64,000 bases of DNA from Undibacterium sp. 5I1 (GTDB taxonomy: Bacteria > Pseudomonadota > Gammaproteobacteria > Burkholderiales > Burkholderiaceae_D): NCBI RefSeq assembly GCF_034314085.1, contig NZ_JAVIWI010000001.1, positions 2,294,001 through 2,358,000 of the forward strand. Reading direction: 5' to 3'. The position numbers were made by a program, and so were the translations under genes. This document shows, in pieces, positions 5,120-31,809 of the stretch. The first letter of the stretch is position 1. The number at the start of each line of letters is the position of its first letter. The notes below the pieces were generated by a model. That model saw only the letters and a list, made by a program, of their open reading frames with translations. It was not told where the DNA came from and did not search any database.

Positions 5120-5998
5120 TTAAACCGTCTCTTTAATAGCAGCGAACTCATTCCAGGCCAGCGCAGCTAACACCACGGCGCCGCCATAGATCGTTGCATT
5201 CGCCGGCACTTCACCAGCACCGAGCCAAGCCCAAATCGGCCCCAGCAACACTTCCACCAAAGCCAACAAAGATACCTCGGGCGCAGCCAGACTTCTGGTT
5301 GCACGAACCATCAACATGCATGGAAAACCTAATTGAAATACGCCTAACACGGCGAGTATTAATAAGTCATGTGCAGATGCCTGAAAAGGCAAGGCAAATG
5401 GCAGCATCGCCAGCGCAGAAATCACGCCACCAATCATGACTGCGGGCGCTAAATCCAACGCGTGCCCACCCTTTTTCAACACGATCACGTTGACTGAGGC
5501 TGCTACTGGTATCCCCATCGCAATCAACATGCCAGTCAACCCTCTACCATCGACTTGTGACATGCCGCCAGCGAACATCCAGACCATACCTGCCAATGTC
5601 ACAGCGATGGCTAACCAGGTGCGCGTCAATATCTTTTGGCGGAGAAAAATCCAGGCGAAAAAGGCTGTCAACAACGGTGAAACACTCATGACAATCAACG
5701 TATTAGCCACGGTGGTCATGGTGAGGGCAATCATAAAACAACAAAACATGATGGCCCACATAATGCCAGAGACAAATCCAAAGCGACCAACGGATAATAG
5801 TTTTTTCAACGCACCGGTATTGTGCTGCACACTCATCGCCAGCACGACATAGATGGCAGCAAACAGGCTGCGCCAGAAGGTAACTTCAAAGCCACGTGCA
5901 ACATCAAGATGCCGCGTCAGCACACCTGCGGTGCTCCACAATATAGCGACGCAGATCATTAAAAGCAAAGCAGTACGATGGCTGGGTTGATTGTGCAT
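5120..5998 (-). CDS. EamA/DMT-superfamily transporter
   Basis: A 292-aa protein with ten predicted membrane helices arranged as two EamA repeats (about residues 10-140 and 150-285), the usual size for the drug/metabolite transporter superfamily. Features include the early ILWSTAGVLTRHL helix, FWRSLFAA at the end of the first pair, and EVSLLALVEVLLGPIWAWL in the second repeat. It sits in the inner membrane and most likely exports a small metabolite or amino acid. The substrate cannot be told from sequence. Transcribed alone, upstream of and parallel to a MITE-like element. Confidence 0.85.
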   Translation of the reverse strand: MHNQPSHRTALLLMICVAILWSTAGVLTRHLDVARGFEVTFWRSLFAAIYVVLAMSVQHNTGALKKLLSVGRFGFVSGIMWAIMFCCFMIALTMTTVANTLIVMSVSPLLTAFFAWIFLRQKILTRTWLAIAVTLAGMVWMFAGGMSQVDGRGLTGMLIAMGIPVAASVNVIVLKKGGHALDLAPAVMIGGVISALAMLPFALPFQASAHDLLILAVLGVFQLGFPCMLMVRATRSLAAPEVSLLALVEVLLGPIWAWLGAGEVPANATIYGGAVVLAALAWNEFAAIKETV

Positions 5999-6049
5999 AG
6001 GATATTTTATTCAGCTCAAATGCAAATTAAAAATCTCGGTTAAATAAAA

Positions 6050-6095
6050 AAACCCGTTTAACTCGAACCACTGTGTGGAGGAGCAAAACGGGTTT
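6050..6095 (-). terminator. intrinsic terminator after typA
   Basis: AAACCCGTTT (6050-6059) pairs with AAACGGGTTT (6086-6095). On the minus strand the stem is followed by a T-run (the A-run at 6045-6052), so it ends the typA transcript. Confidence 0.8.
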
Positions 6096-6139
6096 CAATT
6101 CTATCTGGCGATCATGCTAATCGGCAGATCAAACTTTAA

Positions 6140-7975
6140 TTACGCGTCGCGAGAAGCCTTTTTACGCTCGTGCTCTTTCAAATAACGCTTACGCAGACGA
6201 ATGCTCTTAGGCGTGACTTCAACCAACTCGTCATCCTCAATAAATTCAACTGCATATTCCAGACTCATCTGAATTGGTGGTACCAAACGTACTGCTTCAT
6301 CCGTACCGGAGGAGCGCACGTTAGTTAATTGCTTACCTTTGATCGGATTCACAACCAGATCATTGTCACGGGAGTGAATACCGATAATCATGCCTTCGTA
6401 CACCGGATCGTTGTGAACAACGAACATACGGCCGCGATCTTGTAATTTCCAGATTGCATAAGCGACGGCAGCGCCATCATCTTGAGAAATCAACACACCA
6501 TTGCGACGACCTGCTAACTCACCTTTAGAATTATCAACTGGCGCGTATTCATCAAACACATGGCTCATCAAACCTGTACCGCGCGTCAATGTCATGAATT
6601 CGCCCTGGAAGCCGATCAGACCGCGTGCAGGAATACGATATTCGAGGCGCACACGACCTTTGCCATCCGGTTCCATGTTTTGCAAATCACCGCGACGACG
6701 ACCGAGCTCTTCCATCACGCCGCCCTGGTTGTTTTCTTCGACATCCACGGTCAAGTTTTCATACGGCTCATGGCGCACGCCATCCACCATTTTGAATACG
6801 ACACGTGGACGGGAAACGGAAAGTTCAAAACCTTCGCGACGCATATTTTCGATCAAAATCGTCAGATGTAATTCGCCGCGACCGGATACTTCATAAGTAG
6901 AGTCATCGTTTTCAGCTTGTACTACACGCAAAGCCATATTGGCTTTCAATTCGCGATCCAAACGATCGCGGATTTGACGCGTTGTAACGAATTTACCTTC
7001 GCGACCAGCCAATGGTGAATTGTTAACCATGAAGTTCATTGTCAAGGTTGGCTCATCAACCTTCAACATTGGCAAACCCAGCGGTGTATCTGGTGCGCAG
7101 ATAGTAGAACCGATACTGATTTCTTCGATACCGTTAATCAACACGATGTCGCCAGCCAGTGCTTCGTCAACCAAAATACGATCCAGACCTTTAAACGTCA
7201 GAACCTGATTGATACGTGCTTTGGTTGGCTTGTCGTCTGGACCATTCATCCAAATAACGTCTTGTAGAGGCTTAACACGACCGCTCAAGATACGACCAAC
7301 ACCGATCTTACCAACGTAAGAGGAGTATTCCAAAGACGTGATCTGCAATTGCAAAGGACCATCTGGATCATCTTGACGCGCAGGAACGTGTTTTAGGATC
7401 GCCTCGAACAAGGGATCCATGTTGCCTTCGCGGATATTATCTTCCAAACCTGCATAGCCTTTGAAGCCAGATGCATAAATGATAGGGAAATCTAACTGCT
7501 CATCAGTTGCGCCGAGCTTGTCAAACAATTCAAATGTCGCATTGACTGCTTTCTGCGGATCTGCATTTTCACGATCAATCTTATTCACAACGACGATCGG
7601 TTTTAAACCCAACGCTAACGCCTTACGAGTCACAAAACGTGTTTGCGGCATCGGGCCTTCTTGCGCATCGACCAGCAACAAAACGCTGTCTACCATAGAC
7701 AATACACGCTCAACTTCACCACCGAAATCGGCATGGCCTGGCGTATCAACGATATTAATATGCGTACCTTTGTACTCAACAGCGCAGTTCTTGGACAGAA
7801 TCGTGATGCCACGCTCTTTTTCAATATCGTTAGAATCCATCACGCGGGCATCAACCTGTTGGTTGTCGCGGAAAGTACCGGACTGACGCAATAATTGGTC
7901 AACCAGTGTGGTTTTGCCGTGATCGACGTGAGCGATAATGGCGATGTTGCGGATAGCGCGTTTTGTATTTGACAT
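6140..7975 (-). CDS. typA: ribosome-associated GTPase TypA/BipA
   Basis: 611 aa, normal for the family. The N-terminal GTPase domain shows AHVDHGKTT (G1, about residues 16-24), [12 protein letters not shown] (G3) and NKID (G4). EF-G-like domains III and V and the TypA-specific C-terminal domain follow, ending in a basic tail ([12 protein letters not shown]). TypA binds 70S ribosomes and assists 50S subunit assembly and translation under stress and low temperature. It is the last gene of the minus-strand translation cluster, 180 bp after truB, with its own terminator. A TATAAT-like box at 8014-8019 (minus strand) suggests a separate promoter. Confidence 0.97.
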
Positions 7976-8156
7976 GGTAGCGAGAAGATTTAGGGAAATT
8001 CAGATAACCCAATATTATAACATGTTGTACTGCACAACATTTGGATAATAAGCAAAACTCCTATTATTTCAAGGAGTTACTACGTGTTAGTGACAAGAAC
8101 TGATTACTACTAGAATCTTCTTAGATAAATTAAAACCAGCGATAGATCACTACAAA

Positions 8157-9092
8157 TTACATCATCGTCGTTGCAATTAATCGTTCTGGCGCCAGAATGC
8201 TGTATTCCTGCAATTGGGCAGAACCTAGCAATTGTTGATCTGAGGCACGATATACGCGAACACGGCCAATTTGCGTAGGTAAGATGGTAGATTCTTTGCC
8301 TAAAGCTAAACGTTGCCCCTGTAAAAATCGCTTTGCCAGTTCTTCCGTCAAATCAAGTCGAGGAAAGCTAGATAGCAAGGCATCTACGGGTGCCAATAAA
8401 GCTAATCGGTCAGTTTCTTCGATCTCACCCAAAGCCTCAAGAGTGATCGATTTTTCCAAGATTAAATGCCCGACCTGGGTCCGTCGCAAAGCTTTTAGAT
8501 GTGCTCCGCAAGATAATACTTTGCCGATGTCTTCACCCAATACCCGGATATAAGTTCCCTTGCTGCAACATACATTGAGCGTCAAATACGGGGCGTCATA
8601 ACTTACAAAATCAAGACTATGGATTGTTACTGGCCTTGCCTCTCGCTCCAGGGTTATGCCGGCACGCGCGTACTCATACAGAGGTTTTCCATCACGCTTG
8701 AGGGCAGAATACATAGGAGGAGTTTGCAGAATATCACCACGAAATTGCGCTAAGGCGGCATGGATTTGCTCTTCAGTCACATTGACTGACAAGCTTTCTA
8801 CGATCTCGCCTTCCGTATCTCCGGTAGTAGTGCTAACTCCCAGATGTACGGTAGTTTGATATGTCTTATCTGCTTCCAATAAATCTTGAGAAAATTTGGT
8901 CGCCTCACCAAAACATAGCGGCAACAAACCCGTCGCAAACGGATCCAATGTACCGGTATGCCCCGCCTTTTGCGCATTAAATAGGCGCTTTGCTTTAATC
9001 AGCGCGTCGTTGCTAGATAGTCCGACAGGTTTATCCAGCAATAAAACGCCGTGCACTGGCACACGTACTCTCTTTTTTACCGGACTATTCAT
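8157..9092 (-). CDS. truB: tRNA pseudouridine(55) synthase TruB
   Basis: 311 aa. The catalytic motif GHTGTLDPFATGLLP is present with the nucleophile Asp50. The N-terminal LLLDKPVGLSSNDAL loop and the C-terminal PUA-like part (about residues 245-305) are intact. It makes pseudouridine 55 in the T-loop of tRNAs. It lies downstream of rbfA in the rimP-nusA-infB-rbfA-truB order usual in proteobacteria; the rbfA-truB gap is 194 bp, so a secondary promoter is possible. Confidence 0.97.
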   Translation of the reverse strand: MNSPVKKRVRVPVHGVLLLDKPVGLSSNDALIKAKRLFNAQKAGHTGTLDPFATGLLPLCFGEATKFSQDLLEADKTYQTTVHLGVSTTTGDTEGEIVESLSVNVTEEQIHAALAQFRGDILQTPPMYSALKRDGKPLYEYARAGITLEREARPVTIHSLDFVSYDAPYLTLNVCCSKGTYIRVLGEDIGKVLSCGAHLKALRRTQVGHLILEKSITLEALGEIEETDRLALLAPVDALLSSFPRLDLTEELAKRFLQGQRLALGKESTILPTQIGRVRVYRASDQQLLGSAQLQEYSILAPERLIATTMM

Positions 9093-17625: not shown

Positions 17626-17956
17626 GCAAACTCTTTAGCACATTGATTGGTTGATCTAATTAAGTATGGAACGGCACTGAAAGAACTTCTTCAGCCAAAA
17701 CCGATTCTGTAATTTTGCTGCACTTTAGGGCAGCGCATGCCATCTAGGCGGATACTTACTGTCTGACATCAACCAAAGTCAACACATTTGGTTATGCATT
17801 AATTGTGTTAATTAACTCATCAACTAAATCGACAATCGCCGAACAATTGCCGCTTGTTTGAGCGTAGCGCAGTTGATTAGAATTTCATCAATTGCGCTGA
17901 TATCGGATTGTAGTCCAGAAATTCCGCACAAATCAAAAAATAATTACTGAGCCAAT

Positions 17957-17986
17957 AAAAAAGCCACGCGAATACGTGGCTTTTTT
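17957..17986 (-). terminator. terminator, probably the original end of the tRNA-fMet transcript
   Basis: AAAAAAGCCACG (17957-17968) pairs with CGTGGCTTTTTT (17975-17986). It is 9 bases beyond the tRNA 3' fragment at 17996-18043, on the side where the undisrupted tRNA gene would have ended, so it is probably the chromosomal terminator separated from its tRNA by the island. Confidence 0.75.
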
Positions 17987-17995
17987 GTTTAATTC

Positions 17996-18043
<48 letters not shown>

Positions 18044-18134
18044 AAAACTAGAGGGGCTTAAAACAAGAATATTCAATAAAATCAACGGCATGCCATACCC
18101 TGACTTACCGCATTATACCGGAATTTACTCACTC

Positions 18135-18155
18135 AAGTGCAGCAAATTTGCAGCA
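18135..18155. repeat. putative integrase arm-site repeat, left end
   Basis: AAGTGCAGCAAATTTGCAGC(A), matching 31655-31675 at 20 of 21 positions in the same orientation. A CCGG/ATTT block 16-17 bases before it is also shared. Copies near both attachment sites suit integrase arm-binding sites. Confidence 0.5.
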
Positions 18156-18248
18156 GAAATTCCGCCGCCCGTCAGATCAAAGTAAATCCTGGTAACTGGT
18201 GCCTATACGTTTAGCAGTCATGTGATTGCTAACAACGAAACCATTCCC

Positions 18249-18524
18249 ATGGAAGCACTTCTTTCCCCTAAAACCTTAGCAGCAGCACTAGGCATTGCCG
18301 AACAAACGATTTATAACCGTCACGCCACAGGTGGAGACTTACCTCCCGTCGTCAAACTAGGTCGCTTACTCCGCTTCCGACCAGCCGATGTACAACACTG
18401 GTTGAACCAGAAGCAGCAAGCAACGGCACCTTTAACAGCAGCTTCACCATCGCAAGCATCAAGTCCACGTCGTCGAGGCCGACCAACCAAGGCCGAACAA
18501 ATTATAGCTCGCCGCAAACTATGA
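18249..18524 (+). CDS. AlpA-like / excisionase-family DNA-binding protein
   Basis: 91 aa from ATG 18249 (a GTG at 18222 would add nine residues). A MerR/AlpA-type winged helix fills residues 1-55: LLSPKTLAAALGIAEQTIYN is the helix-turn-helix, followed by GDLPPVVKLGRLLRFRPADVQHWL, the wing and end typical of the HTH_17 family. The tail ends in an AT-hook-like RRRGRPTKAEQ. AlpA-type proteins activate or assist excision of integrative elements. Its place just inside the left attachment site supports a role in island excision or int control. Confidence 0.8.
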   Translation: MEALLSPKTLAAALGIAEQTIYNRHATGGDLPPVVKLGRLLRFRPADVQHWLNQKQQATAPLTAASPSQASSPRRRGRPTKAEQIIARRKL

Positions 18525-18582
18525 ATTTCTAACTTACTTGTCACTTTCCGCTCGTGTGTCGCTAATTCAATATCCTAAGGCA

Positions 18583-19726
18583 GGGCCGACCGAAGTCGGC
18601 CCCGTGAATCAACATTCATGCTAAACATCTAGCCTTCATCTACTTGTAGTACACGGAGTACTCGCCAAAGCACCCCATGTCACATCACCTCCTGGTCGGT
18701 CGCCAAACCTTCCAGGCACATCATTTCACTTGTAAGGCTATATTATCCGGTGGTGTTTCCCAGTAGCAGATTCGCTAACTCGCCTCCACATGCCCATGCA
18801 GAGGAAAGCTCAACTATATTGACTGGTATCACCGCTTAACCATAGTGCATCCTTATTTTTTATATGCAGGTTTCCACCCTGAACAAAATAAGTATCCACG
18901 ACAGGTCACCCACTTAGACAAAACGACGATGAACAGCGCATAACGTGTGCGGCACGAAATCAAACAAACGTAGTTTTCAGCTACCGACGCTTTTGGGCGC
19001 CCGCGGATGGGAGAATGTCCCGAAGACCTCATCCTTGTTTATTTGTACGTCTACCTGGACTTTTACATCACACACTTTATGCACCTCTTGAAAGCCGGTG
19101 CCCTACGTGAGTTCCCTCAGCGTAGTTTCCGACTATTACACGCATAAGCTCTCTGCTACCCCGCCTTCCGGTGGTGGACTGTCTTCCCTGGACGACTCTC
19201 CAGGCGCCTTACGGCATTTTTTCAGACAGCGGCGACTTTCGTCCGCCGACATCACTCGTGTCAAGCACTCCCGTCCAGCTTGCGCTGGATCGTTCAGGAG
19301 GTCGAGGCTGGTTACTCGATTTTTCGTTTGCCAACCTACCGCATTTCGCCTCACGGCTTATAGCGGCGGTGTTTCTGGTGGTCGCACGAATTTCATAACA
19401 AACTTCACAATAGAGAGTGGGTCGAGAGAATTGCAGCTCTCCCGCCCATCATCGCTCGGCGAGCACCTTTACGTGCACCGAGCGGTACCGGCAACTGAAC
19501 TCTGGAATAGAGGTCAGCGCCTGACAAGTGAGACTGATGTGGGGTCGTTGGCGCGACCATCCCACAGCAGTAAGAAGTGAGAGTGTTGGCGCACCCGACG
19601 ACCTGCATCGTCTGGAACTATTTTCTTGGAGTCCTTACCTGTGTAGGTATCGGACTTCACTAAAAAGTGTAAAACCCAAAAAATCAAAATCAAAACAAAA
19701 AAAATAAAAATTCTTTGAATTTTTTG
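18583..19726 (+). ncRNA. candidate large structured non-coding RNA (about 1.1 kb)
   Basis: No credible protein is encoded here. The stretch is packed with compact perfect stem-loops: GGGCCGAC/GTCGGCCC with a CGAA loop (18583-18602), AGTAC/GTACT (18648-18662), CCTGGA/TCCAGG (19187-19204), CGGCG/CGCCG (19230-19248), TCCAGC/GCTGGA with a TTGC loop (19274-19289), CGCTCGG+GCAC/GTGC+CCGAGCG (19453-19484), GTGGG+GTCG/CGAC+CCCAC (19539-19565) and AGTCC+TACCT/AGGTA+GGACT with a GTGT loop (19630-19656). It ends with an AT hairpin and T-run (19706-19726) that could terminate a plus-strand transcript. Composition is more G+C-rich than the flanks. I cannot assign a known family. Strand and ends are inferred. 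Confidence 0.55.
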
Positions 19727-19739
19727 GGACATTCATTAG

Positions 19740-19767
19740 AGGTGTCCGGAATACATTCCGGACACCT
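19740..19767. repeat. 28-bp perfect palindrome
   Basis: AGGTGTCCGGAAT and its exact complement are separated by only two bases (AC). It lies between the candidate RNA and the 305-aa gene, 150 bases upstream of the latter. It may be an operator, a protein-binding end or a relic of a transposon end. No T-run follows. Confidence 0.7.
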
Positions 19768-19918
19768 AGGCCAAATGCGCCTTTCCGATGATTTGGACTG
19801 CACATAAATCTATCGTTATGGCGGCGTACTACTGTTCTAAATCAACGCCTAAAAAGCAGTTCTTGAAAAAGATAAGACCGATGTCTATACGCCTAATTAC
19901 TGTTTGAATGAACATCCT

Positions 19919-20836
19919 ATGCCTAAATCTAGTGAGAACGATACCTCAGTATTAGCGCAAATCCGGCTACCGCGCAGTCAGACACAAGCCATGCGTTTAC
20001 TACTCGATTACCTTAAAAGTAAGCATTATTTCTATCAAAGTGGCTGGATACGTATCGACAAATTACCTGCTTTTGCAATCGAGATGCATGCCAAAATTGG
20101 CATCGGTATGACGCGACATCAACGCGACTATGCGCGCAAACAAGGTCACTCTTGCGGCCATCTCGTCATCGTTAAACCGCTGGATCAGCGGCAGATTCAA
20201 GAGTTTGGCAAGGTTAATTTTTATGTGCTTTGGTCACAAGGCGAAGGTGAACTGGATGTTTTTCCAAAATATAAAGATGCAAGAAAACCATATCAACGCC
20301 TCTATTTTGAAACGGCAAAACGAACCGAACATGACGGCTGGGAGATCTCCCGTATTTATAAACTGACGCAGCTTGAACACCGCAAGCATGTAGCGAAGAA
20401 CAGCAAAGGCGAGATGTTAGTCGATGAGGATGGTCAAGAGATAATGAGTAGCGGCGGTCGACATTTGACATGGGTCATCAGTAAAGAATCCTTTAATGAA
20501 GCCAAAGCATTGGCGAATGAATTGATTGGGCGCTTTCTGAGTAGCCACAAAAAGCTCACTCCACAGGTGGCAAATTCCATCCTCATATGGTTAGCGTACC
20601 AGCAGAAACGGCCAGGATTTTATGGGATTAACCAACAGCGATATCAACTTAAATGCATGATTTGGTCTGCATTAAAGGCTGCTGAAAACAGAAGGGATGC
20701 CGATGATGTATCGGTACAAGTACTGTTTGATAGTATTTACACGGCGCTCAAAGTGTCGCCCCCAGATAATCCTGGGCGGTCTTTGGCTTGGTCTGAAGAG
20801 ACGATTGAGCAGTGGTTTCAGAACCAGCACGTCTGA
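19919..20836 (+). CDS. unrecognised 305-aa island protein
   Basis: Start taken at ATG 19919 (an in-frame TTG lies five codons upstream). It is hydrophilic, with no signal peptide or membrane segment. The N-terminal third has a helical region (RSQTQAMRLLLDYLKSKHYFYQSGWIRIDKLP) and a His/Arg-rich segment (GMTRHQRDYARKQGHSCGHL). The middle is beta-rich and carries VNFYVLWSQGEGELDVFPKY. The C-terminal third is helical. I do not recognise a family, and no nuclease, replication or helicase motif is evident. It follows the candidate structured RNA and the palindrome in the same orientation, which hints at a shared role. A plasmid/island replication or RNA-binding function is only a guess. Confidence 0.6.
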   Translation: MPKSSENDTSVLAQIRLPRSQTQAMRLLLDYLKSKHYFYQSGWIRIDKLPAFAIEMHAKIGIGMTRHQRDYARKQGHSCGHLVIVKPLDQRQIQEFGKVNFYVLWSQGEGELDVFPKYKDARKPYQRLYFETAKRTEHDGWEISRIYKLTQLEHRKHVAKNSKGEMLVDEDGQEIMSSGGRHLTWVISKESFNEAKALANELIGRFLSSHKKLTPQVANSILIWLAYQQKRPGFYGINQQRYQLKCMIWSALKAAENRRDADDVSVQVLFDSIYTALKVSPPDNPGRSLAWSEETIEQWFQNQHV

Positions 20837-21037
20837 TTATTTCTGCAAATGAATATGAATTAGCTTCGTAAAAAATCATGGTCTCTATTAGAGCTTTTAT
20901 TTAGATGGTTAATAAGTAATTAGCAAGAATAAATAAACACTTGTAAGTATTTGTAATAATTAGCTATATATAAATATTTTAATGATTAAATTAGCAATTC
21001 AAAAAGATAACTAATTACCCTAAAGATAATTATATCC

Positions 21038-22408
21038 ATGTCGTACCAAGAACAAATATCACAGAGTCAACCCTTGTTCCGTCTGGAAGTAACAGCAAGT
21101 CACAGTCAACAATGGCTAGGCGCTATCCGTTTGGCACGACCGATTTCGGCTTGGCTGATTGCTGGTGTTGCTTTGATCGTCACGATGATTCTCATCGCCT
21201 TTATCACATTGGGTAACGTCACCAAAAAAGCCCGCGTCACAGGCATCACCCTGCCGATTGGCGGCAGTATCAGCATCAGCGCGCCCAACGCAGGTTTATT
21301 AGTCAACAGTCACGTCATAGAAGGGCAAACTGTTAGTGCAGGTCAAATACTGTTCGAGCTTTCTACTGAACGCCAGGGAGATAAAGGCGAAATCACCGCT
21401 TTGGTTGCCCAACAACTCGCCACCCGTCGGCAGACATTGGAAGCGGAACAAAGACTGCGCACAGCCCAAGCGATAGAAAAGAAACAGGCTTTAGTTCAAA
21501 GGTTGAATAACCTTACGACCGAAGCCAGTCAACTAGAACAAGAAATTGTCCTCACCCAACGTCGCCATAGCCTGGCCCAAGACAGTGTCACTAAATTCCA
21601 AACGCTGCAAAATAATGGCTATGTATCGGCGGCTCAGACCCAGCAAAAACAAGAAGACATGATTGATGTCGATACTCATTTGTCAACCCTACGTCGCAAT
21701 AAGTTGCAGCTAGAGGCTAATCAACTTGCTATGCAAGCAGAGCTGAATGCTCAGGCTAATAGCTTAGCAACTGACCAGGCACAACTACAAAGAGCGGTCG
21801 CTAGCCTGCAACAAGAAATCGCAGAAAATAACAATCGTAAAACGAATCTGATCACCGCCAGCCAAGCAGGCACCATCACCACACTGACCAGTCAAATAGG
21901 CCAAACCATTAACGCAGGACAGGTATTGGCAACATTAATACCCTCATCCTCCAAGTTAGCGAAGACAACAGACACACTAGGCACAACAAAGACGACTTAT
22001 ACAGCGCCGCTAGAAGTTCATCTCTACGCACCCAGCCGCACCGCAGGCTTCGTCGCCAAAGGACAGCAAGTCTTGATCCGCTATCAAGCCTACCCTTATC
22101 AAAAATTTGGACTGCAAAAAGGCACCGTTACCGACATTAGCGACACTCCATTCGCACCAAATGAATTACCCCCTAATTTAGCCAGTACGATTTTGAGTAA
22201 CGCCCAGCAGAATATTCAAGGCTTCAACAGTAATGAAGCCTTGTACAGAATCAAAGTCAGACTAGAAAAACAAACAATAGATGCCTACGGACAAGTGCAA
22301 AATCTAAAGTCAGGTATGACCCTAGAGGCAGACATATTGCAGGACAAACGCAAGATTTGGGAATGGATTGCAGAGCCAGTGCTGGCAGTGACTAATCGAG
22401 GGAATTGA
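21038..22408 (+). CDS. HlyD-family adaptor of a peptide-export (type I secretion) system
   Basis: 456 aa. One membrane helix near residues 36-58 anchors it in the inner membrane. A lipoyl-like half-domain (GGSISISAPNAGLLVNSHVIEGQTVSAGQILFEL) follows, then a long periplasmic coiled coil (about 125-275), the second lipoyl half (ASQAGTITTLTSQIGQTINAGQVLATL) and a beta-barrel end. HlyD/CvaA-type proteins link a C39-peptidase ABC exporter to an outer-membrane channel. The matching exporter gene begins at 25758. Together with the double-glycine peptide between them this points to bacteriocin-type export. First gene of the locus. No TolC gene is nearby. Confidence 0.88.
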   Translation: MSYQEQISQSQPLFRLEVTASHSQQWLGAIRLARPISAWLIAGVALIVTMILIAFITLGNVTKKARVTGITLPIGGSISISAPNAGLLVNSHVIEGQTVSAGQILFELSTERQGDKGEITALVAQQLATRRQTLEAEQRLRTAQAIEKKQALVQRLNNLTTEASQLEQEIVLTQRRHSLAQDSVTKFQTLQNNGYVSAAQTQQKQEDMIDVDTHLSTLRRNKLQLEANQLAMQAELNAQANSLATDQAQLQRAVASLQQEIAENNNRKTNLITASQAGTITTLTSQIGQTINAGQVLATLIPSSSKLAKTTDTLGTTKTTYTAPLEVHLYAPSRTAGFVAKGQQVLIRYQAYPYQKFGLQKGTVTDISDTPFAPNELPPNLASTILSNAQQNIQGFNSNEALYRIKVRLEKQTIDAYGQVQNLKSGMTLEADILQDKRKIWEWIAEPVLAVTNRGN

Positions 22409-22484
22409 CTACCAAATATTTTTTACCAGTCTCCAACAATTAAACGAACACCATATGGTTAATAACTATTTCAATATAAAAATT

Positions 22485-24497
22485 ATGCAAAATTCCCCAA
22501 TCAAATACGTTTTCTCCTACTTCTTGAAAATTGCTATCACGATAGCTTTTAGCTCTCACACGTTTGCAATTGCTGCCGAAAAACCAAAAATTGAGTCGTT
22601 TTTCACCAATGCCGCAATGCAAAAAGTAACAATCTCCCCTGACGGAAAAATCGTCGCAATGCTCATCGAATCTCAAAGTACCGGCTATTTACAGCTATTT
22701 ACAATGGATTTAGATAGCATGGCTCTAAAAATTGTTGCAGGCTTTTCAAACGCCGACGTCGGTTCTTACGACTGGGTGAATAGCCAGCGGCTAGTTTACA
22801 GCGCTGCTTTCCATGATGTGGCACAGCGTGATTTGCGTTTCTTTCCTGGATTGTTTGCGGTGAATCGTGATGGCACCGACCGTATCGAGCTAGCGAGTCC
22901 CTTTCCTGGTGAACCTCGGACGACTGGATCTAATATTCAATCACAGAAATTAACAGGTTACACCTGGCTGATATCAACGGATAAAAGTCAACAAAGTGAT
23001 GATGTGTTTGTTGGTCAATTCACCTTTAGCAACATTCAGGATGTGAAAGCGGTAAAACTGCTGCGATTGAATACTAAAACCGGCAAATCAAAAAATTATT
23101 CTGGTCCAGACAGCCCTACTAATTGGCTAATAGACGAGAGCGGAACCCCGCGTATTGCTGTAAAAAATAGTAGGGGCATAGACACTATTTATTACCTTGA
23201 TCCTAAAGATACCGAATGGCACAAATTAACTGAATTCTCACAATTTGATCCAAAGGGTTTCACGCCGCTCAGTTTTACGCCAGACGGTAAGCTTTACGTA
23301 ATCAGCAATGCTGGAAATGATACATCCTCGTTGTATCACTATGATTTAGCCAAAAATACGATGGACAAAGAACCGCTGGTGAAATTAGACGGTTACGATT
23401 TTTCAGGTTCTTTGATTATTGATGAAAAGAAAAACCGCGTTATTGGCGTCCACCACCTTACCGATGCCAGCGGTACCACCTGGCTAGATCCTGAACTGAA
23501 AGAAGTTCAAAAAAAGATTGATGATTTGTTACCCGGTACGATCAATCGCCTTTCTTTTCCACGCGGCGGTGCGTCGACCTATGTTGTCATTTCTGCGTTC
23601 TCTGATACCCAGCCAATCAGCTATTTACTCTACAAGCGAGATACCGGCAAGCTATCGGGAATAGGTAAATCCCGCCCCGACATTGATGCTAAAGAGATGT
23701 CCAAACAAATGTTTGTGCATTATTCAGCAAAAGATGGCTTGTCAATTCCTGCCTATCTAACTTTGCCAGTAGGGCATGACAAAAAAAATCTGCCACTCAT
23801 TGTGCTCGTTCATGGCGGCCCCTATGTTCGCGGCAGCCAATGGGGCTGGGATCCTGAAGTGCAATTCCTCGCGTCGCGGGGTTACGCCGTACTGCAGCCG
23901 GAATTCCGTGGCAGCAAGGGTTTTGGTACTCAACATCTTGAGGCTGGTTTCAAGCAATGGGGCTTAAAGATGCAAGAAGATATCGCCGATGGCGCCCGCT
24001 GGGCAATCGCTAATGGTTATGCTGATTCCAAGCGTATTTGCATTGCCGGCGCTAGCTATGGCGGATATGCAACGCTGATGGGGCTCGCCAAAAATCCTGA
24101 ATTATTTCGCTGTGGTTTCGAGTGGGTCGGCGTCACAGATATCAATCTAATGTTCGAGTCAAGCTGGGAAAACGACATGTCGGAAGAATGGCAAAAATAT
24201 GGCATGCCAGTAATGATCGGCGACAAAGTCAATGACGCAGCACAGTTAAGAGCGACCTCACCGGTCAATATCGCGGGTCAGATCAAACAACCCTTACTGA
24301 TGGCTTATGGCGGGGCAGACCGACGAGTGCCGATTAAACACGGAAAAAATTTCCGCGATGCAATTGCCTCGACCAACACGCAAGTTGAATGGATACAGTA
24401 CAGCGATGAAGGTCACGGCTGGCAGCTTGTTAAAAATCGTGTTGATTTCTGGAGTCATGTAGAAAAATTTTTAGAAAAAAATCTAGCGCCGGAATAA
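22485..24497 (+). CDS. exported S9-family prolyl-oligopeptidase-like peptidase
   Basis: About 670 aa from ATG 22485, giving a signal peptide (basic start, hydrophobic IAITIAFSSHTFAIAAA-type core, cleavage near AIAA). The N-terminal half is a beta-propeller. The C-terminal alpha/beta-hydrolase domain has VHGGPYVRGSQWGWD (oxyanion region), the nucleophile Ser in GASYGG (residue about 524), the Asp in GGADRRVP and the His in DEGHGW, so the triad is complete. Lying between the adaptor and precursor genes, it may trim or destroy the exported peptide in the periplasm, either as a maturation step or as self-protection. That role is inference. Family members also simply degrade peptides. Confidence 0.85.
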   Translation: MQNSPIKYVFSYFLKIAITIAFSSHTFAIAAEKPKIESFFTNAAMQKVTISPDGKIVAMLIESQSTGYLQLFTMDLDSMALKIVAGFSNADVGSYDWVNSQRLVYSAAFHDVAQRDLRFFPGLFAVNRDGTDRIELASPFPGEPRTTGSNIQSQKLTGYTWLISTDKSQQSDDVFVGQFTFSNIQDVKAVKLLRLNTKTGKSKNYSGPDSPTNWLIDESGTPRIAVKNSRGIDTIYYLDPKDTEWHKLTEFSQFDPKGFTPLSFTPDGKLYVISNAGNDTSSLYHYDLAKNTMDKEPLVKLDGYDFSGSLIIDEKKNRVIGVHHLTDASGTTWLDPELKEVQKKIDDLLPGTINRLSFPRGGASTYVVISAFSDTQPISYLLYKRDTGKLSGIGKSRPDIDAKEMSKQMFVHYSAKDGLSIPAYLTLPVGHDKKNLPLIVLVHGGPYVRGSQWGWDPEVQFLASRGYAVLQPEFRGSKGFGTQHLEAGFKQWGLKMQEDIADGARWAIANGYADSKRICIAGASYGGYATLMGLAKNPELFRCGFEWVGVTDINLMFESSWENDMSEEWQKYGMPVMIGDKVNDAAQLRATSPVNIAGQIKQPLLMAYGGADRRVPIKHGKNFRDAIASTNTQVEWIQYSDEGHGWQLVKNRVDFWSHVEKFLEKNLAPE

Positions 24498-24741
24498 ATG
24501 GAATGTGTTCAACAAAGAAAATGTCGTACCTCTCAAGATTATGAAAACTGAGCTCTGCAAGTAAGCATCTTAAGTTTTGGGTTGTCTTGATCGCAATTAT
24601 TGGCAATGGACAAGTCCAATAGAAATACGGTATTTGGTATAAAAATTTAGCTTAATCAGAGCGGTGCGCAACGATATGGTTTGGTGATTACGGAAGGGCT
24701 GACCGGTTCAGTTCAATTAGAAATTAAATGGAGTAATGAAA

Positions 24742-25008
24742 ATGAGAACACTTTTTTTAAATGAAGTTTGTACAGTAAGCGGCGGAGAAACGCAGACTGT
24801 AGTAATTCAAGGACAGGGTACAGGCTTGGTTAAAGCAATTGATCCTATGATGTTCACAGGAAATGCATGCTACGCCAGCGACAGCTATGCCAGTGGGCCA
24901 AGCGCTACGGCACCTCAACGTCCGGAAGAACTACCTTTAGGGAGAGTGCCAGGCGCTGGTTTTACCGGGGTAGCAATCAGGGTAATCGTAGGATTGCTGG
25001 CTCTGTAA
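24742..25008 (+). CDS. bacteriocin/microcin-like precursor with double-glycine leader
   Basis: 88 aa. GGAG at 24730-24733 is 8 bases from ATG 24742, which is preferred over ATG 24736 (2 bases). The leader MRTLFLNEVCTVSGG has the pattern recognised by C39 peptidases: Leu/Val spacing ahead of a GG cut. The predicted mature 73-aa peptide starts ETQTVVIQ, holds one Cys (GNACYASDSYAS), a Pro-rich middle (APQRPEELPLGRVPG) and a hydrophobic Gly-spaced end (GFTGVAIRVIVGLLAL) like membrane-active class II peptides. It lies 244 bp after the S9 peptidase. No maturation enzyme typical of lanthipeptides or lasso peptides is nearby. Confidence 0.75.
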   Translation: MRTLFLNEVCTVSGGETQTVVIQGQGTGLVKAIDPMMFTGNACYASDSYASGPSATAPQRPEELPLGRVPGAGFTGVAIRVIVGLLAL

Positions 25009-25137
25009 TAGTAACGTAAGTATGTAGTAATGTATTAAATATTAGTCTGCCCATGGATACATCAAATACATGGGCGGAATATAAAATCAAAGTCAGTTTT
25101 TGCAGTAAAAGTTCACACTTATTTTCGAAGACATTTA

Positions 25138-25728
25138 ATGAAGCACAAGCTCAGCTCAAATTTTTGTTCATCCATTATAAAAAATACATCATTCTCTCTA
25201 TTTTTAGGAGCATTGAATTGGGGATTATTTTTTGGCTTGTTCCAAATTCGGAATATCTATCACTCCTCATTCGCGATATCTTATTCTCGGTGGTGGGAAC
25301 AAGCTGATGTTTATGATTCTATCGCTGCAATATCACTCGCTCCCATATTTGAGGAGCTTCTTTTTAGAAAACTTCTTCTCAATGCACTTTTAAAAAAATG
25401 CTCGAGTATCCAAGCAGTGTTAATCAGTGCCTTTCTATTCGCTTTGGCACACTACACTAATTTTTATGAAGCGAATTTCAGATTTGACTGGCTAGGCGCA
25501 ATAAGTCATTTTTTTATGGGAATAGTGTTGGCTATCGTGTATTTAAAAACTAAACATATTATTTATCCCATTTTTACCCATATTTTAGAAAATTTAATTG
25601 TATTAACCCCTAAAGATTTTTTATTGCCGTCAATTATAAATAACAGTTATTTTCCTTATATTACCTTGGTATGTGCTTCTGGAATTTTGTTGATAAAGTA
25701 CGCTAATGTTAGCGTAATCAATAAATAA
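25138..25728 (+). CDS. CPBP-family (Abi) intramembrane metalloprotease
   Basis: 196 aa and strongly hydrophobic. The family motifs are in order: EELLFRK (motif 1, glutamates and Arg), FALAHY (motif 2, His) and HILEN (motif 3, His/Asn), within about six membrane helices. CPBP proteins cleave prenylated proteins in eukaryotes. In bacteria many occur next to peptide bacteriocins, where several serve as immunity proteins. Placed directly after the precursor gene, an immunity or maturation role fits. Base composition is AT-rich compared with the exporter genes around it. Start ATG 25138; an overlapping frame from 25053 is a shadow. Confidence 0.8.
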   Translation: MKHKLSSNFCSSIIKNTSFSLFLGALNWGLFFGLFQIRNIYHSSFAISYSRWWEQADVYDSIAAISLAPIFEELLFRKLLLNALLKKCSSIQAVLISAFLFALAHYTNFYEANFRFDWLGAISHFFMGIVLAIVYLKTKHIIYPIFTHILENLIVLTPKDFLLPSIINNSYFPYITLVCASGILLIKYANVSVINK

Positions 25729-25757
25729 TTTCTGCAAAGCTATCTAAATTATCCTAC

Positions 25758-25994
25758 ATGAAATCCCTCCTCCAAACAGAATCGAGCGAATGCGGTTTAG
25801 CTTGCTTAGCCATGGTCGCAAGCCATTACGGCTACCACACTGATCTCGCAGATTTACGTCGTCAATTCTCGATCAGTCTTAAAGGAGCGACGTTAGCTCA
25901 ATTGATGCGCCATGCGTCGGCAATGCAATTGTCCACATGTTGGCGCGCACTCAATATTGACCAGATAAACGCAGTTATACGCACTGAATATTGA
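25758..25994 (+). pseudogene. 5' fragment of C39-peptidase ABC exporter, cut by an IS
   Basis: The frame gives the start of a C39 double-glycine peptidase (MKSLLQTESSECGLACLAMV, catalytic Cys12). It remains native through codon 60 (MQLST, ending at 25937), after which the IS end supplies 18 foreign residues and a stop. The continuation (RPLRLELEEL...) is found exactly after the second target duplication at 28532. Removing the IS and one duplication restores a single 717-codon frame. The 78-aa product has Cys but neither the His nor the Asp of the triad, so no active peptidase is expected. Confidence 0.9.
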
Positions 25995-26052
25995 CCAGGT
26001 AAATTAACCTATCCTTGCAGTTTTGACTGCGAGGGAATTCAAGGTGATTACC

Positions 26053-27549
26053 ATGGGAATGTACTCTAAGGTCAGGCGGCTGTTCTACCGAGAACGGCTA
26101 TCCATTAGCGAAATTCAGCGACGAACCAGCCTGTCGCGCAATACCATCAAGAAGTGGCTTAAAGAAGCCGAAGGGACTGAGCCGAAGTATGCCCGGCCTC
26201 CGACTGTCAGTAAAATAGCTCCCTTTGCATCCCTCATTCAGTTAGCGCTACAAACCGACAGCCATCGACCTAAAAAAGAACGTCGTACTGCGCTTATGCT
26301 ATTTAAGGAACTCCAGCAAGCAGGGTTCACCGGTAGCTACTCGGGTGTCAACCGTTACATTTACGCCTGGCGTGACCAAGCTGCCAAAGTCACTGGTAAA
26401 TCTGCCTTCGTTCCACTGAAGTTTCAACTCGGCGAAGCATTCCAGTTTGACTGGAGTGAGGAGCTGCTTGTCATTGGTGGCATTCATCGCAAAATCCTTG
26501 TAGCACACACTAAGCTGTGCGCCAGCCGTGCCTTTTGGCTGGTGGCTTATCCGACGCAAAGCCACGAAATGCTCTTCGATGCCCATACTCGCGCCTTTAC
26601 TGCCATGGGTGGTATTGCACGGCGCGGTATCTATGACAACATGAAGACCGCTGTCGATAAAGTCATGAAAGGCAAAGGTCGTATCGTCAATGCACGCTTC
26701 TTTGCAATGACAGCCCATTACTTGTTTGACCCCGACTTCTGCAATGTGGCGTCTGGCTGGGAGAAAGGTATTGTTGAGAAGAACGTCCAGGATAGTCGCC
26801 GTCGTATCTGGAACGACGCCAGACAGGAACGCTTCGGCAGCTTTGCGGAACTCAATGCATGGCTGGCGGTACGCTGCAAGTTACTCTGGAGTGAATGCCG
26901 CCATCCGGATTACCCTGAGTTGACCGTCGCCGACGTGCTGGAACATGAGCAAGCCCAACTCATGCCGATGCCAACACCCTTCGATGGCTATGTCGAACTC
27001 GTAGCACGGGTTTCTTCTACTTGCTTAGTTCATGTCCACCGTAATCGTTATTCAGTACCGTGCTATTTGGCCAATCACATGGTCAGTGTTCATCTGTATT
27101 CAGAACAGATTGCCGTCTACGCTGAGAATGAGAGGGTTGCATGTCATCTACGACTATTTGGACGTGATCAGACCAGCTATGACTGGCAGCATTACATCCT
27201 TCTGGCAGAAAGAAAGCCCGGTGTCTTACGAAACGGTGCACCCTTTGCATTGATGCCGGCGCCTTTAATCAAATTGCAAACCACCTTGCTACGCCGTGCC
27301 GGTGGTGATCGCGTCATGGCTCAAGTGTTAGCGGCTATCCCGCACCATGGCCTTGATACCGTCATTGTGGCAGTAGAACTAGTGCTGGAGTCCGGTGCAA
27401 CCAGTGTTGAACACATCACTAACGTATTGGTGCGATTAAGTCAGGGCGATCGTCCTGACCCCGTCGCCACAAGCTTGCAATTAATCGAAGAGCCGGTAGC
27501 CGATGCAAGTCGCTACGACAGCTTACATCAGGAGAATCAGCATGTTTAA
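26053..27549 (+). CDS. istA: IS21-family transposase IstA
   Basis: 498 aa from ATG 26053, which has AAGGTG six bases upstream (an in-frame TTG at 26023 is less likely). The N-terminal helix-turn-helix ([21 protein letters not shown]) is followed by the DDE core: Asp in FQFDWSEE, Asp in [11 protein letters not shown] and Glu in [12 protein letters not shown] Mu-type C-terminal domain completes it. IstA cuts and joins the element ends with the help of the ATPase IstB. Its stop overlaps the istB start. Confidence 0.96.
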
Positions 27550-28372
27550 CATCATCAGTGAACTTAAATCACTCAAGTTATATGGAATGGCAACTGCCTA
27601 TACCGATTTAACAGCACAGAGTACCGCGTCCGTGAGTACATCGGAATGGCTCATTCAACACTTGTTAGAAGCGGAATCGACGGATCGAGCGATGCGTTCG
27701 ATCCGTTATCAGTTGCACGTTGCCAAATTTCCGATTCATCGCCACCTAGCTGATTTCGATTTTAGCCAATCCAAAGTAGACCAAAAGCTGATCGAACAGT
27801 TGGCCACGTTAGCCTTCACAGAGGCTGCGCACAACGTGGTGCTGATTGGTGGCACTGGCACAGGTAAAAGCCATCTGGCAACAGCACTGGCGGTCTCCGG
27901 TATTACGCAACATGGAAAGCGAGTGCGCTTCTTCTCAACGATTGAACTGGTGAATGCCTTGGAATTAGAAAAGGCAGCAGGCAAACAAGGACGCATGGCC
28001 CTAAGCCTTATGCAGATGGATTTGGTGATCTTAGATGAGTTAGGTTACCTGCCATTCTCACAGGTGGGTGGTGCGTTACTGTTCCATTTACTGTCTAAAC
28101 TCTACGAACGAACCAGCGTCGTCATCACGACCAACCTGACATTCTCTGAGTGGAGCAACGTCTTTGGCGATGCAAAACTGACGACTGCGTTACTGGACCG
28201 ACTGACACACCATTGCCATATTATTGAAACAGGTAATGATTCCTATCGTTTCAAACATAGCAGTGCCACAGCAAAAATGCGGATTAAATCAAGAGAAAGA
28301 AGCCGGGAATTAAACAAGCCTGAGACTGAGATATCAGCAGAACCTGGTGAAGTCTCTGGGCAGGAGTTTTAG
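27542..28372 (+). CDS. istB: IS21-family helper ATPase IstB
   Basis: 276 aa from ATG 27542 inside the overlap with the istA stop (ATGTTTAA), typical translational coupling. AAA+ DnaC-like: Walker [12 protein letters not shown], Walker [13 protein letters not shown] and the later [15 protein letters not shown] segment. It is about 20-25 residues longer than usual at the C-terminus (basic [11 protein letters not shown] then acidic tail). It chooses target DNA for IstA. Confidence 0.96.
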
Positions 28373-28522
28373 TGCTTAAGTGGCTAAATTGAGTTCAACA
28401 AATGGAGAAAACAATGCACACATAATTGATCGACAAACCTGAAACAAACTTGTATGCTCAGCAACTAAGCGCCTGGTCAATATTCAATGCGCGCAGCTGG
28501 TCAATATTGAGTGCGCGCCAAC

Positions 28523-30502
28523 ATGTCCACACGACCATTGCGCCTGGAGTTGGAGGAGTTAGATCAGTTAGCCTTGCCATGTATTTTGCATTGGAACTTA
28601 AATCACTTCGTCGTCTTAAAAAAGATCACTAAAAATTGGCAAGGCAAAGTGACTTTGTTTTTGCTCGACCCTGCGGTGGGTGAGCGCCGCGTTACTTTGC
28701 AAGAGGCATCGGCTCACTTTACGGGTGTCGCTTGCGAGTTGTCTCCAAGTGCGAGCTTTAAGCCGAAAGACGAGCGTAAAAAGATTGCTATCCGAGATTT
28801 AACCGGACACATCGTTGGCCTGCGTCGCGCCATTGTGCAAGTCATGGTACTAGCGCTGGCGCTAGAAATCTTTGCGATTACCTCCCCGTTGTTTAATCAA
28901 TTTGTGGTGGATGAAGTCATTGTCAGTGGCGACCGCGAGTTACTGACGGTGCTGGTCATTGGCTTTGCTTTACTGATGGTGACTCAAACCGCGATCAGTC
29001 TGGCGCGTAGTTGGTTCTTGATGCGCTGGAGTATGGATATCAGTTTTCAATGGAGTGCTCGAGTTTTTGCGCATCTGACGCATTTACCAGTCTCTTTTTT
29101 TGAGAAGCGTCATCTGGGTGACGTGGTCTCTCGCTTTGGCAGTATTGGGGTGATCCAGAGTACGTTGACGAGTTTGTTTGTGGAGAGTGCCTTAGACGGT
29201 CTGATGGCCTTGCTGGCACTCGGCATGATGTTGTTATATAGCGTGAAGTTGTCTGCTTTGGTGATAGTGACGGTCTTGGTGTACGCCGTATTACGATGGG
29301 TGTCTTATCAGCCGTTCCGCGAGGCGTCGCAAGAACGTCTGGTGCTATCGTCCAAAGAGAGTAGCCATTTTTTAGAAACTATCCGTGCGATCTCGCCGCT
29401 GAAATTATTTGGACGGGAGGAGGAGCGTCGGGCCCGTTGGCTAAATCTCAAAATGGATGTACAAAACCGCGATATCAAGACGCAGAAGATGTCGATATTG
29501 TTCAAGATTTCTAATACCACCTTATTTGGTATTCAGAGTCTGGCTTTGTTTTATATCGGTGCTGGACAGGTGATGCAGAACGCCTTGACAGTAGGGATGC
29601 TAATGGCTTTTTCTAGTTACGCCAGCACCTTCTCAGGTCGTTTCTTTAACGTCATTGACTTGGTAGTCAACCTAAAAATGCTAGGGCTGCATAGCGAGCG
29701 CTTAGCCGATATCGTTTTAGAAGAAGCAGAAATCGATACCGTACAAGAAACCGATATGTCTCGCATACAGCCAACGATTACACTTAAAAACCTGAAATTT
29801 CGTTATGCCGAGGGGGAGCCTTGGGTGTTAGACGGGATTAATCTGACCATTCCTGCAGGACAAAGCATTGCTCTGGTTGGCCCTAGCGGTTGTGGCAAAA
29901 CGACTTTATGCAAAATCATTCTAGATTTGCTTAAACCCACTGAGGGTGAAGTCTTGATTGATAATATTCCGACTAAGCAATTAGGTATAAATGCCTATCG
30001 CAAGCTAATTGGTACTGTGATGCAAGATGATGTATTGATGGCCGGCTCGATTCAGGACAACATCAGTTTTTTTGATGCACATACCAAGCAAGAACAGGTC
30101 GAGCACTGTGCTAGACAGGCGGCAATTCATGAGGATATTGCGGCCATGCCGATGGGTTATCAGACCTTGGTTGGGGACATGGGTAGTAGTTTGTCAGGAG
30201 GGCAAAAGCAGCGAGTCTTGCTAGCGCGTGCCTTGTACAAACAACCCAAGATTCTGGCATTAGATGAAGCCACGAGCCATCTGGATGTGCAGAATGAGCA
30301 AAAGGTCAATCAGGCATTGGGTACGCTGAACTTGACTCGCATTATGGTTGCACATCGACCAGAGACAATTGCCAGTGCGGAGCGCGTGGTGTCATTACAG
30401 AACGGGAAAGCGGTAGAAATACGTGCTACGTCAATCGACCGCGCTGAACTTAAGCCTGATCAATTTGAGTCGCTGGCAGAACTACAGATGTTGGTTGCCT
30501 GA
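28523..30502 (+). pseudogene. 3' fragment of C39-peptidase ABC exporter
   Basis: The remainder of the interrupted exporter: the end of the C39 domain with the catalytic His (LPCILHWNLNHFVVL) and Asp (LLDPAVGERR), six membrane helices (about residues 95-365) and a nucleotide-binding domain with GPSGCGKTT, LSGGQKQR, ILALDEATS and the H-loop MVAHRPE. The last base of the IS plus TG of the target duplication make an ATG (28523-28525) in frame, so a peptidase-crippled ABC half could still be translated if a promoter fires. It lacks the catalytic Cys, which is in the 5' fragment, so leader cleavage should be lost. The native operon ends at the terminator 30514. Confidence 0.9.
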
Positions 30503-30602: not shown

Positions 30603-31598
30603 CTAATGTATTGTCTTTTGACGGATAGCTGCTACCAACTCGGCCGCAGTAGGGTTGTAATAGCGCATCGCCATTTGCAAGGTTTTCCAGCCAAAGATTT
30701 TTGCCAGTGTTGCTGCGGGTAATACTTTTGCCCATCTGGACGCCGCTTCATGGCGTAGGTCATGAAAACGTAAATTGGTTATGTCAGCATGTCGGCAAAG
30801 TCGACTAAATGCTGCAGTAACGCCATCCGTTGCCTGGAATCCCGTCAATCGGCCATGTGGATGTTGCTGGGCACTACGCAGAGCAGATTCTGCAGTGACT
30901 GACAAAGGCACATCCCGAGCAGTCCCATTCTTTGTCATATCCAAATGAATAAAATGATGAGCTAGGTCGATTTGATCCCAAGTTAAGGACACCATTTCTC
31001 CGCAACGCATACCAGTTTCGATAGCAAGTACGATTAATAAACTTAGGTCAGATGATTCTCTCTTGCGAGCAGTATCAAACAGACGTATCTCTTCATCGCC
31101 AACCAGACGACGCGAGCGGCCTCTGGGGAGTTTTGGTTTACGGATATCAGTAATCGTGTTGGCGACCGAAATTGACCAGTCACGGCGGGCTGTATTGAGT
31201 AAAGCAGAGAATACGGAAAGTTCTAGTTGTACTGTCTTCGGAGCGACTTCTTTTAGTCGCTGGTCACGGTAAGTGGAAAAGTCGACATTTTGTAGGCTGG
31301 CGAGTGGACGTAAAGCCAGAGGGTGTCGCATCAACTGCAAAAGACGGTAATTTTCTTTGACATGACCGCGCTTAGCGGGCGTTACTTCCAAGCGATAGCG
31401 TTCTAGTGCATCGCCGAGAGTCGTACTTTCTGCGGTTGAACGGTCGCTAAACTCACCACGTCGCATTTTTGCCTCGACATCTCTGGCCCAGTCGTTGGCT
31501 GCTTTGATGGTTTCTAAAGTGCGTGTTTGGGTAGGATAGCCTTTGCACCGGACAATGGCTTGATATTGATACGGACCGCGTTTATTGATCGTTGCCAT
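30603..31598 (-). CDS. tyrosine-recombinase integrase of the island
   Basis: 331 aa. The N-terminal SAM-like core-binding domain (about 60-145) follows a short arm-binding part. The catalytic domain has Arg198 (TGMRCGE), His279/Arg282 (FHDLRHEA), a GW pair at 303-304 and the nucleophile Tyr313 (MRYYNP), so all essential residues are present. It starts 134 bases from the restored tRNA-fMet 3' end and reads into the island, the usual position for an integrase using that tRNA as target. Shufflon/phage-type relatives are about this size. Confidence 0.95.
   Translation of the reverse strand: MATINKRGPYQYQAIVRCKGYPTQTRTLETIKAANDWARDVEAKMRRGEFSDRSTAESTTLGDALERYRLEVTPAKRGHVKENYRLLQLMRHPLALRPLASLQNVDFSTYRDQRLKEVAPKTVQLELSVFSALLNTARRDWSISVANTITDIRKPKLPRGRSRRLVGDEEIRLFDTARKRESSDLSLLIVLAIETGMRCGEMVSLTWDQIDLAHHFIHLDMTKNGTARDVPLSVTAESALRSAQQHPHGRLTGFQATDGVTAAFSRLCRHADITNLRFHDLRHEAASRWAKVLPAATLAKIFGWKTLQMAMRYYNPTAAELVAAIRQKTIH

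Positions 31599-31732: not shown

Positions 31733-31809
<77 letters not shown>

Follow-up and report, generated by a model that had tools for sequence, protein, structure and literature searches.

Circularly permuted (CP) group II ribozymes, also called "T-large" RNA, were defined as a class by Roth et al. 2021 (PMC8637638). The branch-point adenosine is described there as attacking a 5' splice site that lies downstream of it, the linker then closing on the upstream 3' splice site, and the products are a circle and a T-shaped branched RNA. The linker ranges from 15 to 86 nt, the sequence of the circle is variable across the class, and pseudoknots were proposed between P2 and D2 and between P1 and the 3' end. 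The ribozyme of plasmid pPNAP05 was active in vitro and its RNA was expressed. An association of the RNA with the gene acpG was also described there, as frequent and not universal. Its authors give no function for the class or for AcpG, and none was reported in the other literature found, as judged by titles and abstract openings.

The window (the whole stretch of 64,000 nucleotides of Undibacterium DNA that was analysed) very probably holds another of these RNAs: at a probability of about 0.94, the segment 18583-19660 on the minus strand is a CP group II ribozyme gene that diverges from acpG. It is a further member of a rare, already described class and no new kind of RNA, and this copy adds some new comparative detail. 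Sequence comparison bears out the homology to the class, the fold of D5-D6, the reversed order of the splice-site motifs, the neighbouring AcpG and the island setting. The features of the locus are as follows; G261, G264 and G265 are other Undibacterium genomes, R2 and R3 are covariance models and A10 is a protein profile.

17996..18043, no strand: left attachment repeat of 48 bp, an exact copy of 31733-31780, the 3' part of tRNA-Met
18222..18524, plus strand: AlpA-like helix-turn-helix gene, convergent with the RNA (PF12728, E=1.3e-10)
18583..19660, minus strand: probable CP group II ribozyme RNA, ~1.08 kb, ends approximate (conservation limits, fold, R3 and R2)
18583..18603, minus strand: terminal hairpin GGGGCCGAC-UUCG-GUCGGCCC, with a compensatory A-U to G-C change in G264
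18652..18679, minus strand: 3' hairpin 2, UUGGCG within the loop
18691..18716, minus strand: 3' hairpin 1, with UUGGCG as its loop, which complements the 5' loops
19371..19387, minus strand: predicted GUGCG 5' splice site with the beginning of the D1 part, GUGCGACCACCAGAAAC
19388..19415, minus strand: linker between the splice sites, the predicted 28-nt RNA circle (splice-site rule)
19418-19416, minus strand: ACU, after which lies the predicted 3' splice site
19419..19447, minus strand: Domain 6 (D6), with a predicted bulged branch-point A at 19422 (from sequence and R3)
19453..19484, minus strand: Domain 5 (D5), with CGC triad, 2-nt UC bulge and GUAAAG-looped upper stem (R3)
19539..19565, minus strand: 5' hairpin b, P1/P2-like, loop CGCCAA
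19581..19596, minus strand: 5' hairpin a, P1/P2-like, loop CGCCAA
19629..19658, minus strand: first hairpin of the conserved RNA, GAAGUCCGAUACCUACACAGGUAAGGACUC, kept in G265 and G261, altered in G264
19740..19767, no strand: near-perfect palindrome AGGTGTCCGGAAT-AC-ATTCCGGACACCT between the RNA and acpG
19904..20836, plus strand: acpG (AcpG protein), TTG start or ATG at 19919 (profile A10)
30603..31598, minus strand: island integrase (PF00589, E=1.2e-23)
31733..31809, minus strand: intact tRNA-Met, right end of the island

The class assignment comes from reciprocal covariance models. R1 (3' part) and R2 (5' part) were both built from the window, G261 and G264, and R3 models D5-D6 from 21 loci, pPNAP05 included and none of them from Undibacterium (L340 was left out because the selection pattern missed it). 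R3 matched the window at 19484-19416 on the minus strand with E=1.8e-11, the sole match at E<=5 within the 64 kb; against the whole genome this site had E=1.4e-9 and the runner-up 0.56. On pTT8 the R3 match lies at 5911-5830 of the minus strand (E=1.1e-4), divergent from the ORF 6164-6943. The RNA of pTT8 was missed by R2, which matched pPNAP05 at plasmid position 18-174 (E=1.1e-5). Among 399 genomes R2 recovered its own and four distant Burkholderiales (per-genome E of 1.1e-6, 7.9e-5, 2.3e-4 and 2.7e-3), and R1 found no match in these four loci. Over 392 genomes of the family R1 gave outside Undibacterium one weak match at most (G197, E=0.0045); this match and a weak one in G254 (E=0.014) were without an R2 match.

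The Rfam family RF00029 (group II intron), which we take to model D5-D6, exceeded its cut-off in one related plasmid RNA, L164 (43.3 vs 40), and in none of the other 19 of 20 related sources. This match served as the pointer to the class that Roth et al. 2021 had described. In the window, the Rfam check for GOLLD, ROOL, OLE and introns proposed in the first-pass annotation found nothing over the stretch: at gathering score the whole window gave only an FMN riboswitch (48244-48430, minus strand, 104 bits) and tRNA, with no match over 18583-19726, and 17900-21100 gave no relevant family at E<=5. GOLLD, ROOL, OLE and a group I intron were rejected on this basis, having no covariance-model match either at gathering score or at E<=5. 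The plasmids pPNAP05 and pTT8, which carry published members, likewise had no match at gathering score, and Rfam 15 does not pick up the class at the window locus.

By DNA search the RNA stretch is present as a single copy in its genome and, among 43 Undibacterium genomes including its own, recurs in G261 and G265 (98%) and in G264 (87%). In G176, G249, G250 and G251 only an A-rich stretch near query position 1122-1172 matched, and the match was likewise limited to this stretch in G083 and G096. Identity to the window is 1064/1076 (G261), 1065/1077 (G265) and 938/1084 (G264) for the RNA, and 290/303, 285/303 and 223/303, respectively, for the AlpA gene. The identity of G261 falls sharply near 19770, AlpA on the other side being at 96%, so that the 98-99% figure for the RNA is partly mosaic and G264 is the fairer comparison. 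The window RNA, searched as DNA against plasmids and phages, had no match, and scans of viral contigs revealed no relative, some loci that were rechecked sharing short words at most. The palindrome at 19740-19767 is the place where the identity of G261 drops, and an insertion in G265 starts just beside it. In this last genome (L028, ~4990-8820) acpG is split and parted from the RNA, which is still 1065/1077 identical, by two near-identical 303-aa ORFs that look transposase-like by eye.

On the minus strand the order is D5, D6, GUGCG at 19387, ~700 nt of conserved RNA and then the 3' hairpins. The members on pPNAP05 and pTT8 described in PMC8637638 likewise have D5-D6 first, reversed inner splice motifs and a short linker; they also share the 5' hairpins with long-range loop pairing, the adjacent acpG, the residence on plasmid or mobile DNA and the lack of an intron-encoded protein inside. 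The splice sites were placed by the motifs given in that paper, NU after D6 and GGGCG before D1. Applied to pPNAP05, this rule returned a linker of 32 nt, equal to the length given in the same paper, and with GUGCG it returned 28 nt in the window, which is inside the published range, and 27 nt in G264. The predicted circle is the least conserved inner part in the comparison with G264 (19/28, or 11/20 without the last 8 nt, against 628/704 for the RNA body), in agreement with the variability of the circle across the class. The context of the predicted branch A19422 is, by eye, CUCUCG-A-CCC against GGG-CGGGAGAG.

Some details set the window copy apart from the published ones. Its triad is CGC, with the G and C retained and C as first base, whereas the published consensus is AGC; CGC stands at the same place in L320, L325 and L326. 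The 5' splice site reads GUGCG in the window, G261 and G264, and at the likely place in L320 and L321 too, whereas GGGCG is found in pPNAP05 and in every other locus whose linker could be read. Moreover both 5' loops are CGCCAA and both 3' loops hold UUGGCG, the RNA is ~1.08 kb long against a class average of ~0.9 kb, and the copy lies in an integrative island at a tRNA-Met gene. With canonical group II introns (RF00029) it shares the D5-D6 fold, the branch-point A and a GUGYG-type 5' splice site, but its order is permuted and neither a conserved inner ORF nor an interrupted gene was seen. A canonical group II intron was rejected, as D5 starts ~0.2 kb from the 5' end and D5-D6 would be expected at the 3' end.

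If the RNA follows the chemistry described in PMC8637638, its domain order of D5 and D6, 3' splice site, 28-nt linker, 5' splice site and putative D1-to-D4 part would allow the bulged A of D6 (19422) to attack at the 5' splice site, which precedes 19387. In a second step the linker, now with a free end, would attack the 3' splice site after 19416, and the products would be an RNA circle of 28 nt and a branched RNA in which D5-D6 and D1-D4 are 2'-5'-linked. The 5' CGCCAA loops may pair with the 3' UUGGCG loops, drawing the ends together and standing in for the D4-D5 link.

The alternative that survives best, although improbable, is that catalysis was lost in the Undibacterium lineage and that the CP group II ribozyme is now a scaffold only or is decaying. 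The CGC triad and the GUGCG site deviate from the published consensus, and a search for an EBS-IBS pairing, which in 7 of 20 loci gave a candidate ~210 nt past the 5' splice site, gave none in the window. Nevertheless all four Undibacterium copies retain the triad's G and C, the bulge, the bulged A and the two splice-site motifs, conservation in G264 is higher for the RNA (938/1084) than for AlpA (223/303), and G264 carries compensatory changes. In addition, CGC is the triad of the active group IIC intron of O. iheyensis too.

The ORF that diverges from the ribozyme encodes a protein of 305-310 aa with 19-27% identity to 22 A10 members outside its own branch. Profile A10 matches the ORF 57909-58718 of pPNAP05 (E=2e-33) and the ORF 6164-6943 of pTT8 (E=6e-12), the next ORF being at 0.015; since these are the ORFs of both published loci, the window ORF is taken as AcpG. 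By size and place the pTT8 ORF fits TTHC007, a label that its record does not carry, and the window protein shares with AcpG/TTHC007 the profile match and the position divergent from the ribozyme. For the window protein no family above cut-off was found in Pfam, PHROGs, NCBIfam or PADLOC (the single weak Pfam line was GARS_C, 13.6 bits against a cut-off of 34.8), and among solved structures nothing matched its family at an E below 1.4. The window AcpG had no match in plasmids and phages, a first genome scan was fruitless, and the distant AcpG of L160 had no match in phages.

Profile A8 matches the window ORF at 1.2e-12 and recognises a gene beside the RNA in all four of the distant R2 loci. 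The family was found in 24 of 300 Burkholderiales genomes, its own included, and in eight plasmid records at low identity. Twenty-seven AcpG regions were compared (L320-L346), 26 of them from 29 A8 profile rows and one from another search; the own genome and the partial G644:C29 were excluded, two G493 rows were merged and six regions were taken with longer flanks. A D5-D6 match or the D6-linker-splice-site pattern lay within ~2.5 kb of AcpG in 25 of the 27 (one weak), 16 of these 25 sitting in the R3 training set (L353 for L341), and as 21 matched loci or their plasmids helped to build R3, matches at training loci are not independent. Outside the training set R3 matched L320, L321, L323, L328, L335, L340, L345 (E=0.013), L352 and L354, the last two standing for L330 and L331. 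The regions without D5-D6 are L344, with a weak AcpG match, and L346, where the contig ends 223 nt upstream. Six of the eight plasmids carry D5-D6 near AcpG (L163, L164, L165, L166, L168 and L170), and the Acetobacteraceae plasmids L167 and L169 have AcpG without a D5-D6 match. At L350-L354 (G512 twice, G635, G503 and G644) RNA and acpG share one strand, the RNA being the upstream one, and D5 is ~1.3-2.1 kb from acpG, whereas the window arrangement is divergent.

A role of AcpG as replication protein was also considered and rejected, because a separate annotated replication gene (RepL, RepB, TrfA, RepA or replication initiation protein) is present in seven of the eight AcpG-bearing plasmid stretches; in the remaining one, from Pandoraea (16.7 of 35 kb), no replication gene was seen.

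The complementary loops at the two ends of the RNA lie ~0.9 kb apart, and in 3' hairpin 1 the loop is followed by 3 bp, an inner loop and an outer stem. As read from the sequence, the loop pairs would correspond to the class feature of 5' loops pairing with distant loops. This arrangement of loops is also found in other loci, among them pPNAP05, where both 3' loops are the same and one 5' loop is exact. A search for an exact CGCCAA hairpin within nt 1-700 and a UUGGCG hairpin within nt 700-1700 (stems >=4, motif picked after sight) was positive for 11 of 41 regions and for none of 4100 mononucleotide shuffles, the 41 regions including the near-identical window and G261, a 223-nt fragment and regions without RNA in range. 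G264 fails this test on the stem criterion of the 3' hairpin only, in G265 the inserted sequence displaces the RNA outwards, and L331, one of the 11 positive regions, has the RNA on the acpG strand. The order of CGCCAA and UUGGCG is identical on both strands, so that the loops by themselves are no argument for RNA.

Folding of 18575-19665 against 30 dinucleotide shuffles per strand gave z = -3.8 for the plus and -5.8 for the minus strand, and the four-sequence alignment folds at -398 on the minus strand vs -337 on the plus strand. Among the four copies, pair changes on the minus strand number 14 compensatory, 25 one-sided and 15 broken, those on the plus strand 15, 18 and 23, respectively; with compensatory counts this close, covariation alone cannot choose the strand at four-copy depth. 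The RNA was assigned to the minus strand on account of the UUCG and GNRA loops, the better fold and the D5-D6 match found there. The first-pass annotation had thus misread the strand, and the T-run hairpin near 19726 that it took as the end of the RNA belongs to the 5' flank, the real 3' end being near the 18583 hairpin. Of the extent it had proposed, 18583-19726, the start was retained, but the conserved structured part stops near 19660. The claim of a G+C content above that of the flanks is only partly borne out, with 0.47-0.54 within the stretch, ~0.49-0.50 over AlpA and 0.44 on the downstream side.

A deeper alignment, A9, consists of 17 R2 matches at E<=5, three of which, at E 0.9-3.3, are probably chance. 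In it 94.5% of cells are paired, both partners vary in 39 of 53 pairs and covariation scores 0.274 (0.080 when shuffled, at most 0.041 when slid), numbers that are favoured because A9 was fitted to the model structure. Within the D5 helix all cells are paired and both partners vary in 9 of 12 pairs. The earlier proposal that a mobile island here carries a large structured RNA is upheld; the hairpins that it named are present (19453-19484, 19539-19565 and 19630-19656), and the comparison of homologous islands for covariation that it advised was positive.

The module occurs on small plasmids, a palindrome adjoins the stretch and the loop motifs have the same order on either strand, all of which would suit stem-loops that function as DNA, be it as replication origin, in recombination or as protein-binding hairpins. 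Such a role is very unlikely. It is the minus strand that has the better fold and agrees with the RNA models, and replication genes of their own were seen in all plasmid stretches save that of Pandoraea (7/8). Moreover, according to PMC8637638, pTT8 replicates with the ribozyme nearly all deleted, a chromosomal copy having remained, and the RNA of pPNAP05 is expressed.

Still less probable is a new, non-catalytic large RNA, a cage or scaffold in the manner of GOLLD or ROOL, whose likeness to group II would be due to chance. The window RNA is large, ornate and located in a mobile island, as GOLLD, ROOL and OLE are large and ornate and come in some cases from mobile or phage contexts; ROOL and GOLLD form RNA-only complexes, and kissing loops are among the terms of one paper in this literature. 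However, the window RNA has a splicing core and no Rfam match to GOLLD, ROOL or OLE, the R3 match (E=1.8e-11) falls at the expected place and strand, and reversed splice-site motifs and AcpG are common to the published CP group II loci. The two options first offered, a GOLLD/ROOL-like RNA or a new class, both give way to a CP group II ribozyme on the evidence of the reciprocal models.

A small protein as the functional product can be practically dismissed, as none of the four frames checked survives in every relative: the 160-aa frame 19098-19580 on the plus strand is uninterrupted in the window and G261, is almost complete in G265, with a frame change near its end, and has several stops in G264, and three minus-strand frames, open in G261, have a stop or frame shift in both G264 and G265.

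The ribozyme stretch lies at the left end of the integrative island, with the AlpA-like gene beside the left repeat. The AlpA-like protein bears a weak resemblance to MAD1 of the methylation-associated defence system, at 28.4 bits far under the NCBIfam cut-off of 80, and at 1.4e-7 in PADLOC. The cargo at 21038-30502 includes an HlyD-type protein, an S9 peptidase, a CAAX protease, a C39-type ABC transporter, which seems to be interrupted by an IS21 pair, and, judged by eye, a 90-aa ORF whose leader is GG-like; it looks like peptide export. Near two distant acpG/CP group II loci, C4 antisense RNAs (RF01695) were found (L320, 3677-3760; L327, 2942-3026), which suggests prophage or satellite neighbourhoods. 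Between acpG and the RNA a short GATGTTCC- or GAGATTCC-like site was seen in 27 of 41 regions (L163-L170, L320-L346, L347, L348 and the window), with a pattern composed after sight of the site. Its copies are GAATGTCC in the window (~19903-19700, minus strand), GAGGTTCC in pTT8 and GAGATTCC in pPNAP05, and it is a possible binding site or promoter element.

As to the role of the CP group II ribozyme, it can be guessed, quite tentatively, that the branched ribozyme, assisted by AcpG, would be an effector serving the mobile element. The branched ribozyme is favoured over the circle as effector because the body is conserved and the sequence of the circle much less so. More doubtful is a fuller reading, whose parts are to be taken jointly: RNA and AcpG might form a portable RNP of plasmids and islands in which the branched ribozyme, kept shut by two similar 5'-3' loop-loop contacts, reverse-splices into target RNA or DNA in trans, for upkeep of the element or against rivals, with AcpG binding the RNA and/or the GATGTTCC-like site.

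CP group II ribozymes are among the few large ribozyme classes, and one for which the defining paper gives no role. The present copy sits in a defined integrative island of an Undibacterium genome and its relatives bear out the pairing of AcpG with the RNA. The circle sequence, the branch A, the end loops and the shared upstream site are handles for finding the role of the class.
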